Source of the DNA: Candidatus Kerfeldbacteria bacterium
Lineage (GTDB): Bacteria > Patescibacteriota > Patescibacteriia > UBA9570 > XYC2-FULL-38-9
Assembly (NCBI GenBank): GCA_018500015.2
Contig: JAHBAR020000005.1
Location: 1 to 40,766 of the forward strand
Length of the DNA: 40,766 nt
Direction: 5' to 3'
Shown one piece after another: positions 945-6,933 of the stretch (positions within the stretch are counted from its first letter, which is position 1; each line of letters begins with the position of its first letter). The notes under the pieces were generated by a model, which was given only the letters and a program-made list of their open reading frames with translations, made no database searches and was not told the origin of the DNA. The position numbers were made by a program, and so were the translations under genes.

Positions 945-1541
945 CTATGACCTCAGATAAATTTCATACTGCTTTGGAAAATTTTCTTTTGCCACTCCAA
1001 AGTATCCAAAAAGCACTTCTGGCAAAGTTTTTATATCTAACCAAGAATATGGGGAGTGCCCTTGGATGTACCATTGGGCACTAGAGTATTTGTATTTAAT
1101 AATGTCGGCGCCACAATCCTCAGCGTTTTTGTGAACATATTTTGAAACGCTGATTAGGTCCTCAGTATTCTCTATGAGACGAGAGCCGTATTTAGCACGA
1201 AACACATGATTTATATGCCCATACTTTTTGTTATAGTATGTAGTGTATCTTTGTATTATCACTTGCATAAATAAAGAAATTGATCGTTCTTTAGTTTGTT
1301 TGAACATGAGATGAAAATGATTTGGAATTAAGCAGTAGGAGAGTATGGTGATATCGTTATAAAAGTTGACTTTTTGGTTTTTACTCGTTGGGTTTAAGTA
1401 ATGACTTATTAAAGAAAGGAAATAATTATAGTCACTTTCGTCGTGAAAAATTTTTTCTTTATTATTCCCACGATCGAATGCATGATAATATCCGCCGGCT
1501 AAAAACGAGCGAGTAACATACTTTGATGGCATAAAAAACAC
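945..1541 (-). CDS. REP-associated tyrosine transposase (Y1/IS200-like, HUH)
   Basis: Motifs AGGYYHAFDRGNNKEKIF, YCLIPNHFHLMFKQ (HUH-type), and SVSKYVHKNAED typical of Y1_Tnp/RAYT proteins; start may be the internal Met at codon 4. Confidence 0.85.
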   Translation of the reverse strand: MFFMPSKYVTRSFLAGGYYHAFDRGNNKEKIFHDESDYNYFLSLISHYLNPTSKNQKVNFYNDITILSYCLIPNHFHLMFKQTKERSISLFMQVIIQRYTTYYNKKYGHINHVFRAKYGSRLIENTEDLISVSKYVHKNAEDCGADIIKYKYSSAQWYIQGHSPYSWLDIKTLPEVLFGYFGVAKENFPKQYEIYLRS

Positions 1542-4227: not shown

Positions 4228-4253
4228 ACACCCGCTTGAAGGCGGGTGTTTTT
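4228..4253 (+). terminator. Rho-independent terminator after rplA
   Basis: ACACCCGC(4228-4235)/GCGGGTGT(4242-4249) then T-run. Confidence 0.85.
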
Positions 4254-4257
4254 GTTT

Positions 4258-4287
4258 ACCACGTCGTTCACGAACGACGTGGTTTTT
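4258..4287 (+). repeat. REP-like palindrome/second terminator: ACCACGTCGTTC-ac-GAACGACGTGGT + TTTT
   Basis: Perfect 12-bp arms; core resembles 28911-28930. Confidence 0.85.
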
Positions 4288-4315
4288 GTGCAGCGGAACT
4301 ACTGAAGAGGTAACA

Positions 4316-4420
4316 GCGGGCGGGACCAATGCGGGTTTCCTAGACGAAGCGCAGCAGTGCATCAGTATGCCAATGATGTACTGCGAGCACGGCTAGGGAA
4401 GCATTGGTCCGAAAGCTCGC
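4316..4420. other. 105-nt multi-helix structured element (candidate ncRNA or palindromic element)
   Basis: Nested arms: GCGGGC 4316-4321/GCTCGC 4415-4420; GGACCAATGC 4323-4332/GCATTGGTCC 4401-4410; TTTCCTAG 4336-4343/CTAGGGAA 4393-4400; GCAGTGCATCA 4354-4364/TGATGTACTGC 4374-4384. Confidence 0.7.
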
Positions 4421-4432
4421 GTATGTTATACT
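4404..4432 (+). promoter_or_regulatory. Promoter of dTTP operon, leaderless start at 4441
   Basis: TTGGTC(4404-4409)-N17-TATACT(4427-4432), 8 nt before ATG. Confidence 0.7.
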
Positions 4433-4440
4433 CATTGAAT

Positions 4441-4956
4441 ATGAAGCGACCTTCTTGGGACGATTATTTCATGGCGATTGCACGCATTGTCGCGACGCGC
4501 GGCACATGTGATCGTTTATATGCCGGCGCTGTTTTGGTGAAAGATAAACGCATCATGTCATCTGGGTACAATGGCTCTCCTCCAGGGCTCCCACACTGTG
4601 ATGACGTTGGTCACTTGCTCGAAGAAGGGCATTGCGTGCGCACCATTCACGGCGAGCACAACGCGCTTTTGCAAGCAGCAGTGATTGGCGGTGGTTCAAC
4701 AAAAGGCTCCACAATGTATTCTGTCTATAGCCCATGCATTCATTGCGCGAAATATATTGCAGCAGCAGGAGTCGTGCGCGTCGTCATTGGAAAAATGTAC
4801 CGCAACGCTGGTGTGCTCGAGTATCTTCAGAATGCGGGAATCGAAACTATATTGTATCAACCATCCGAACACTGGAATGATCGCGTGATAGATATTTTTC
4901 AAGCCGACATTGAAGAGCGTAAAGAAAAACCAATAACACTCACTGAAGAGAAATAA
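4441..4956 (+). CDS. dCMP deaminase family protein
   Basis: Zn-binding TIHGEHNALL and SPCIHCAKYI; ORF track starts upstream at 4357, but MKRPSWDDYFM is the likely N-terminus. Confidence 0.9.
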   Translation: MKRPSWDDYFMAIARIVATRGTCDRLYAGAVLVKDKRIMSSGYNGSPPGLPHCDDVGHLLEEGHCVRTIHGEHNALLQAAVIGGGSTKGSTMYSVYSPCIHCAKYIAAAGVVRVVIGKMYRNAGVLEYLQNAGIETILYQPSEHWNDRVIDIFQADIEERKEKPITLTEEK

Positions 4957-4957
4957 T

Positions 4958-5491
4958 ATGCGCATTGTTGGTTTAAGCGGACCAAAATTATCGGGGAAGG
5001 GGACCATCGCACGCTACCTCATTGACCACAAACATGCTGTGGCTTTTTCGATGTCTGGCGTTCTTTCTGACATTGCAAAACGCATGTACATGGAGAACAC
5101 CCGTGCGAACCTCATTGCAATCGCAACAGGTTTACGTTCACAGTTTGGGCAAACGATTTTGGCCGAAGTGCTCGCAAAAGACATTGCGCGTTCTCAGAAT
5201 GAACTCATAGTTATCGATGGTATTCGTCTCAATAGCGAGGTGGATATTTTTTCTAAGCTCACAGGGTTTGAGTTGTGGTACGTCGATGCATCTGTTGAAG
5301 AGCGTTTTCAGCGCGCAAAAATGCGTGGTGAAAAAGTTGAAGAGACGACGATGACATTTGAAGAGTTTGTTGCGCAAGAGTCGGCTGTGACTGAAAAAGA
5401 AATTCAATCCTTACGCTTGCGCGCTCAACACGTGCTTGACAATGTGACCTCAATGGATGATTTGTATCAGGAAATCAACACGCTTCTATGA
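4958..5491 (+). CDS. P-loop nucleotide kinase-like (dephospho-CoA kinase/AAA_18-type, probable deoxynucleotide kinase)
   Basis: GLSGPKLSGKGTIARYL P-loop; context. Confidence 0.7.
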   Translation: MRIVGLSGPKLSGKGTIARYLIDHKHAVAFSMSGVLSDIAKRMYMENTRANLIAIATGLRSQFGQTILAEVLAKDIARSQNELIVIDGIRLNSEVDIFSKLTGFELWYVDASVEERFQRAKMRGEKVEETTMTFEEFVAQESAVTEKEIQSLRLRAQHVLDNVTSMDDLYQEINTLL

Positions 5492-6933
5492 GCGAGAATA
5501 CGTGGCCAATCTATTTTGCTGAGAACTTGATTGTTGGCAATCTCAACTCTTCTGTTGCGGTCGCAACACTCTGGACGCCAAAAGAGGCGTTTGGTAAGCG
5601 TTTGAAAGCGGATAGCTACTGCGTCATGGGTCAGTTGTATTCCAACGATGGAATCAACGCTATTTTGCGTAACACACTCGCACGCCCACAAATTCGAACA
5701 ATCATTCTATGCGGACAAGATAAGATTGCTTCCGCAGATTCGCTTACGTGCTTGGTGAACAATGGCATCAACGAAAAGGGGGAGGTAATAGGCAAAATTG
5801 AGTCACGCGTTGAAAAAGAAATCCCAAAGGAAGCGGTTGATCTCTTTCGTGCGAATGTCAAAGTCGTTGATATGCGTGGCGTGCTCAAGGTGGAAGAAAT
5901 TCAAGCGGCAATTGATGCGGCTCAAGCTGACAATGCACCTTGGGCTGAACCACAGATGTTTCCTGAGCCAGAAATTTCTGCGGACTGGTTTCCATCGGAA
6001 AATTCAACGTATACATTCCGTGGTAAAACTGTTGCACATGTGTGGCCCAAAATTTTGCACAGCATCATGCGTTTTGGTGAAGAAAAAATGACGCACTACA
6101 GCACCAAGCAAAAAGAGTTGTGGAATGTGGTTGCTGTCATCACCGACGAAGACCCAGAACATATTGAGTGGGCACCCTATTTTAATTTTACAAAAGAACA
6201 TTTCGAAGGATACAAACCGCAAGTGATGACTGCGGAACCTGTACCGTCGCTTGCGTACACCTACGGCATTCGTTTACGCGATCATAATGGTGTCAACCAA
6301 GTGCAAAGCATCATTAAAAAAATCAAAGAAGAATATTTTACACGTCGTGCTGTTGCTGTGCTTTGGAATGTTGCCATTGATGACGACTCAACGCATCCGC
6401 CGTGTCTGACTGTTGTGCAAGCTGCAGTGAAATACGACAAGTTGTATCTCACATGCTATTTGCGTAGCAACGACATGTTCCGCGGATGGCCAGAAAATAT
6501 TTTGGCGTTCCGCACTATGCAAAAAGAGATTGCAGACGCTGTTGGTCTTCCTATGGGCCCACTTACGTCGATTTCTGAATCAGGACATGTGTATGAAGAA
6601 AGTTATGTGCAGGTGAAAGAAGTGATTGATCAAGCGTATCCAAAATTGCCATGTGAACAAGATCCTCGAGGCAACTATGTGTTGAAGGTAGATAAAACAA
6701 AACAAGAGATTCAAGTCATCCACATGTCACCTGAGGGTCGTAAAATTGGCATGTACAATGGCACCACAGCGATGGGTATTTTTAATGATATTGCCAATAA
6801 TGGCGGTATCTCTGTTTTTGTACACGCGCTCGATCTCGGTGCTGAACTGCAAAAAGCTGAAATTGCCTTAAAGCTTGGTATTGAGTACACACAAGACCGT
6901 CCATTGCCATTAACAAAAGAAAGCTTAAAATAA
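5488..6933 (+). CDS. Thymidylate synthase with N-terminal MtrA-like (DUF4346-type) domain
   Basis: C-terminal HPPCLTVVQ...LYLTCYLRSNDMFRGWPENILAFRTMQKEIA (ThyA); N-terminal GQDKIASADSLTCLVNNGINEKGEVIG resembles MtrA. Confidence 0.85.
   Translation: MSENTWPIYFAENLIVGNLNSSVAVATLWTPKEAFGKRLKADSYCVMGQLYSNDGINAILRNTLARPQIRTIILCGQDKIASADSLTCLVNNGINEKGEVIGKIESRVEKEIPKEAVDLFRANVKVVDMRGVLKVEEIQAAIDAAQADNAPWAEPQMFPEPEISADWFPSENSTYTFRGKTVAHVWPKILHSIMRFGEEKMTHYSTKQKELWNVVAVITDEDPEHIEWAPYFNFTKEHFEGYKPQVMTAEPVPSLAYTYGIRLRDHNGVNQVQSIIKKIKEEYFTRRAVAVLWNVAIDDDSTHPPCLTVVQAAVKYDKLYLTCYLRSNDMFRGWPENILAFRTMQKEIADAVGLPMGPLTSISESGHVYEESYVQVKEVIDQAYPKLPCEQDPRGNYVLKVDKTKQEIQVIHMSPEGRKIGMYNGTTAMGIFNDIANNGGISVFVHALDLGAELQKAEIALKLGIEYTQDRPLPLTKESLK

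Follow-up and report, generated by a model that had tools for sequence, protein, structure and literature searches.

The stretch of DNA analysed here, which is called the window, comprises 40,766 nucleotides of one contig from a Candidatus Kerfeldbacteria bacterium of the phylum Patescibacteriota. In its first part an intergenic hairpin element lies between rplA and a dCMP deaminase gene (4441-4956), which opens a dTTP operon in the order dCMP deaminase, NMP-kinase-like protein, ThyA, Tmk and Dut; the position ahead of the first gene of a nucleotide operon, as given in a preliminary description of the locus, is thereby borne out. One open reading frame of the window (5488-6933) joins a thymidylate synthase domain with MtrA-like and PterinBD-DUF4346 domains.

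The forward strand of 4316-4420 has a minimum-energy fold of -56.8 kcal/mol (z -7.17), a value as low as which was found in none of 200 shuffles, and the helices of 6, 10, 8 and 11 bp described before are recovered exactly in it, together with two 2-bp helices and a 9-nt loop (Table 1). The reverse strand folds more weakly (-44.0 kcal/mol, z -4.66). No terminator was called at 4316-4420 and no poly-U follows it, and the two terminators which had been proposed upstream are separate from it. The first of these stands, with counterparts in three relatives, whereas the second is a copy of a dispersed palindrome. No family of Rfam (Rfam 15) matches the element, neither at the curated threshold nor at a permissive threshold applied to the region alone.

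Table 1. Features of the window around the hairpin element
Feature	Position	Strand	Observation
Core hairpin element, copy c1	4315-4422	+	Fold z -7.2; matches covariance model R1; five close paralogues
Helix 1, 5' arm GCGGGC	4316-4321	+	Partner 4415-4420; pairs kept across copies, three with changes on both sides
Helix 1, 3' arm GCTCGC	4415-4420	+	Fold
Helix 2, 5' arm GGACCAATGC	4323-4332	+	Partner 4401-4410; C-G to G-C and G-C to A-U compensations against paralogues
Helix 2, 3' arm GCATTGGTCC	4401-4410	+	Fold; paralogue compensations
Helix 3, 5' arm TTTCCTAG	4336-4343	+	Partner 4393-4400 in fold
Helix 3, 3' arm CTAGGGAA	4393-4400	+	Fold
Helix 4 (apical), 5' arm	4354-4364	+	Partner 4374-4384; 6 of 11 pairs with changes on both sides between paralogues
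Helix 4, 3' arm	4374-4384	+	Fold; paralogue compensations
Apical internal loop GCA, opposite GA at 4385-4386	4351-4353	+	Unpaired in fold; invariant in six paralogues
Native intrinsic terminator of rplA operon	4228-4249	+	Relatives G001, G003 and G004 have terminator-like hairpins at the equivalent position
Copy of second dispersed 24-nt palindrome CCACGTCGTTCNCGAACGACGTGG	4258-4283		About 18 sites in own genome; T run after it

Within the taxonomic order, rplA was found in eight relatives, and in every one of them it is followed by the dCMP deaminase and kinase-like genes. The spacer between rplA and the deaminase gene is 21-109 nt long in these relatives against 224 nt in the window, and in all eight it lacks the core and contains at most one terminator-like hairpin. 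Since the syntenic spacers are without the core, the window copy has been inserted downstream of the rplA terminator and ahead of the deaminase gene, several losses being the less likely explanation; a regulatory role for it is unsupported. The second palindrome has no visible counterpart in the relatives' spacers either, and it may have arrived together with the core or separately. A weak match of GAGGTAAC and GTTATACTC is the only hint of terminal inverted repeats at the window copy, for which no clear target duplication was found.

Copies in the genome and in other phyla

In its own assembly (1.07 Mb), blastn locates the element at six places, namely on contig C5 (the window copy), on C30, twice on C28, on C16 and on C36. 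The five other copies are 77-90% identical to that of the window, and a weak seventh match of 17 bp was rejected as chance. When the six copies are aligned, the similarity starts with AGCGGG, ends with CCCGC and stops abruptly on both sides. The covariance model R1, built from these six copies only, also finds shorter subfamilies of 85-89 nt with unchanged ends, and with covariance models about 18-20 core sites are found in the genome in total, all of these copy numbers being counts from searches by blastn or covariance models. Two genomes from the same family carry copies as well. Within the own genome some cores form inverted doublets 14-16 bp apart, half-cores adjoin full cores on C9 and C4, and near-identical flanks surround different cores at C17 and C28a. 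The second palindrome, with about 17 sites besides that of the window, lies inside or against a core copy on C26 and C45. Contig C28 also bears two long GC-rich reverse-strand open reading frames (locus L009, 3403-5172) without NCBIfam matches, the other genes of this contig being AT-richer.

For the search across phyla, a collection of species genomes was scanned with the pattern GCGGGTGRCRCC N(53-83) GRCAGGACCCGC, made from both core ends, whose expected chance count over the collection is on the order of 1 by our own estimate and higher in GC-rich DNA. At least 117 stretches match it, nearly all of them in metagenome-assembled genomes and from more than 10 phyla; among the matches listed are Patescibacteria, Omnitrophota, Acidobacteriota, Nitrospirota, Actinomycetota, Deltaproteobacteria, Melainabacteria, Chloroflexota, Krumholzibacteriota, Rokubacteria, Bacillota and others. 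The conservation of the ends among these matches proves nothing, since the pattern demanded those ends. Within the matched loci R1 gives 88 matches at E <=1, the best at 4e-10, and conversely the window copy is matched by R2, a model built from other phyla (E 4e-9). In all, 121 elements were extracted from the pattern loci, a few of which (for example L125, L156 and L160) look like chance matches in coding DNA. The core measures about 75-110 nt, with ends GCGGGTGRCNCC ... GRCAGGACCCGC, and there are 1-24 copies per carrier genome. Carriers are sporadic, amounting under strict filters to only 8 of the 146 genomes sampled in the own phylum. The pattern has no match in viral contigs and blastn no core match in plasmid and phage records, and 17 foreign loci compared with Rfam at curated thresholds gave nothing on the element. 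At one locus (L080, 4259-4415) the 3' end of the core is tandemly repeated with a 26-bp period, and in a Bacillota genome (L094, 3300-3500) a core is enclosed by GGAGAGGGACGGTTCTCCTCCACC repeats in inverted orientation, which are similar to REP palindromes.

Conserved fold and strand polarity

Among the paralogues of the own genome, both partners have changed with pairing retained in 11 of the 38 pairs, a number that none of 500 shuffles reaches, and at most two such pairs are left when the partners are slid by one to three columns. The apical stem, for instance, reads GCAGTACATCA/TGATGTACTGC in some copies against GAATCACGTCA/TGACGTGATTC in copy C28b. The covariation on which the preliminary description would have the structure judged is also found among the homologues: when 88 foreign cores are aligned by covariance model, 92.8% of the cells pair and 31 of the 38 pairs covary. 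The double-change cells number 430, against 136 +/- 10 in shuffled and at most 100 in slid controls; fitting the sequences to the model favours pairing, but the slid controls are far lower.

The unpaired positions are conserved as well. For the internal-loop mismatch beside the basal helix, G.A occurs in 79 of 121 elements and A.G in 37, so that 116 of the 121 have one or the other, and two of the remaining five are probable chance matches. The apical motif CGCAG ... GAGNAC is present in 55 of 116 foreign cores, compared with about 4 in shuffled insides. At the first pair left free by the search pattern, in loci from several phyla, G.T occurs 13 times and A.C never. Over all pairs, by a count which leans on the fitted alignment, there are 110 G.T against 25 A.C and 80 G.A against 21 T.C. 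Because a cruciform or another double-stranded role would not distinguish the strands, it is a folded single strand, the one read in the window, which is under selection; as judged from sequence comparison, the core is shown to be selected as one single strand only.

Flanking sequences and transposases

The cores are dispersed and mostly extragenic. No gene family recurs as their neighbour over the 117 loci, the largest cluster being found in 5 of them, and in relation to co-directional genes, as called from crude open reading frames, 26 cores are parallel and 24 antiparallel. Immediately beyond the core ends, at least 7 of 10 bases are complementary in 23 of 121 elements, where about 4 are expected, and direct repeats of at least 8 number 31 over 178 flanks against about 5 expected, with a few loci counted twice. 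One Melainabacteria genome (G165) has five units in which a core stands between terminal inverted repeats with GGKSTGTAAA-like ends, four of them with clear duplications of 9-10 bp (TCTATTTAG, TTCTAATCTG, TTGATGGTTG and GTCTTGAAC), and six other units with GTCAAC...GTTGAC ends and CTAG on either side. Between these two palindromic contexts blastn matches the core alone, and the homology ends at the core edges. Another genome (G166) shows TGCTCTGTCGAAAACCCAC-type ends with 9-10-bp repeats outside; terminal inverted repeats are clear around core-bearing units of both these genomes and around C17 and C4b of the own genome. The core is often located at the centre of unrelated palindromic repeats of the MITE or REP-like kind.

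No mobilising enzyme of the core was found, nor was excision of a core directly observed. In Patescibacteria, Y1 transposases occur in 9 of 10 core carriers against 6 of 27 non-carriers (p 0.0003), a co-occurrence confounded by mobile-element load. At E 1e-4 no Y1 gene was detected in 5 of the 13 carriers reached via the cross-phylum loci, one of which has 20 copies. When 33 Y1 loci were searched with R2, the core flanked none of the Y1 genes, and the single significant match (L338, 320-420) is separated from its Y1 gene by about 1.1 kb. No association was seen of a TIRYT-like motif or of the core with a place beside Y1 genes; the RAYT profile of the own genome found none near the foreign loci, and no transposase was recognised by eye in the open reading frames between cores at L051, L105 and L109. 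Y1 (RAYT-like) transposases are no more than suspects as movers of the core. The window itself contains a RAYT-like Y1 transposase gene (945-1541, reverse strand) between GGGCAGCCC/GGGCTGCCC palindromes, flanked also by direct repeats of about 100 bp (at about 763 and 1690). Four further RAYT-like genes, on C4, C13, C28 and C41 (L014, L015, L013 and L016), are each accompanied by different palindromic repeats.

Known systems and competing explanations

The closest comparison is with REP/REPIN sequences and their TnpA_REP/RAYT transposases (Y1 HUH). REP is recognised as folded single-stranded DNA of one strand, and conserved mismatches in its stem are needed for activity (PMC8266576, PMC3733652); TnpA_REP binds one strand only and needs the stem bulge (PMC8266576). 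Like REP, the core is a short dispersed intergenic palindrome, often in inverted doublets, and its strand polarity and conserved G.A loop might reflect recognition as a single strand of the RAYT/REPIN kind. However, the unpaired GTAG or CGTC tag at the palindrome foot, by which REP super-families are defined (PMC3733652), is missing in own and foreign copies, whose foot is (A)GCGGGT/ACCCGC. REP is a palindrome of 20-40 bp, whereas the core has 75-110 nt with different conserved loops, and one core type is common to many phyla. What is more, a cognate Y1 gene of the RAYT/REPIN kind is flanked by its own repeat, which is not so for the core at the 33 Y1 loci, and the Y1 genes of the own genome have other palindromes. 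The terminal inverted repeats of tyrosine transposases (TIRYT) have the motif GGGGWSAS (PMC3733652), and the core 3' arm GGYGACAG matches GGGGACAG at 7 of 8 positions, yet carriers' Y1 loci with GGGGWSAS-type flanks have no adjoining core.

Bacterial MITEs are likewise small, gene-free and palindromic, and some core units have terminal inverted repeats and target duplications, but here the conserved part is the centre and not the termini, while inverted repeats and duplication lengths vary among contexts which share the core. The attC sites of integrons are imperfect hairpins of variable sequence, with conserved unpaired features, which act as folded single-stranded DNA. The core resembles them in these respects, and differs in that GTTRRRY/RYYYAAC at the hairpin base and cassette arrays were not seen in the own and foreign copies read. 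A search of the open-access literature by sequence and topic found no description of the family. The miniature non-autonomous palindrome is a known kind of element; the core family, in which REP tags, attC sites and an Rfam entry are missing, is apparently undescribed in the literature searched.

We consider it likely that the window feature is one copy of an undescribed, non-autonomous and gene-free family of mobile hairpins, spread through unrelated phyla and within its carriers. The preliminary description had left the choice between a structured RNA and a mobile palindrome; the latter is favoured by the scattering of sharply bounded copies, by their absence from the syntenic sites of relatives, by the sporadic distribution and by the covariation of the helices, while a leader or riboswitch of the dTTP operon is not, and an RNA function of the hairpin itself is possible. 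As to the mechanism, the core would be recognised and moved as folded single-stranded DNA, or possibly RNA, by an enzyme acting in trans, in a manner that may be likened to REP/TnpA_REP or attC/IntI, and would be further amplified once caught inside MITEs moved by ordinary transposases. Movement as single-stranded DNA is suggested because it explains the strand polarity and the kept mismatches together. The full form of this proposal, in which a single hairpin family of more than 10 phyla moves as folded single-stranded DNA, settles at the centres of other palindromes and so seeds unrelated MITEs and REP-like repeats, is put forward tentatively, and we would sooner doubt than affirm it.

As a rule, a small palindromic repeat is confined to one lineage and linked to a single transposase. 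The same fold, swapping G.A pair and strand preference in more than 10 phyla, within unrelated miniature elements, would imply a widespread unnamed recognition activity, for which the covariance models of the core offer a means of search. Where phyla are poorly sampled, an intergenic hairpin with strong covariation can also be mobile DNA instead of regulatory RNA.

It is rather unlikely, though deserving of some weight, that ordinary DDE transposases move palindromic MITEs of which the core is merely the conserved centre, with no movement of its own and with a hairpin that serves MITE formation, for example by fold-back copying, and not a dedicated enzyme. The inverted repeats with 9-10-bp or CTAG duplications around the core units of G165 and G166, and the excess of palindromic flanks, would be expected in that case; they have to be set against the occurrence of one core in two unrelated contexts of a single genome, which share no homology beyond its edges, and against the different cores within the near-identical flanks of C17 and C28a. 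Fold-back correction, moreover, would erase mismatched internal loops, and the loops are kept across phyla. Still less probable is a family of structured non-coding RNA, either a trans-acting RNA or a ribozyme on mobile repeats, with its function at the RNA level. The polarity of one strand, wobble of the G.U type, the G.A exchange and the conservation of the internal loops would all be expected of an RNA, but folded single-stranded DNA gives identical signals, and the lack of an Rfam match, of any gene association and of orientation to transcription, as well as the inverted doublets 14-16 bp apart, speak against it.

The remaining two explanations concern the window copy more directly. Its place directly before the dCMP deaminase gene would suit a leader, riboswitch or attenuator of the dTTP operon, which is nevertheless highly improbable, as the other copies adjoin unrelated genes and poly-U is missing after the element; a riboswitch or attenuator was rejected on the empty syntenic spacers of the eight relatives, where the same gene order exists without the element. 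An assembly artefact or a chance palindrome is a practically negligible explanation. Assembly flaws do exist, as an adapter-like stretch at the contig start indicates, but the element stands 3.7 kb away from this end with correctly ordered core genes on both sides, has further copies on other contigs and in other genomes, and shows covariation. The contig start (1-600 of the window) contains cagatgtgaataagagacag, which differs from the Nextera mosaic end by a single base; the roughly 600 bases after it have 65-70% GC, in contrast to the remainder, and the end is probably chimeric or derived from an adapter.
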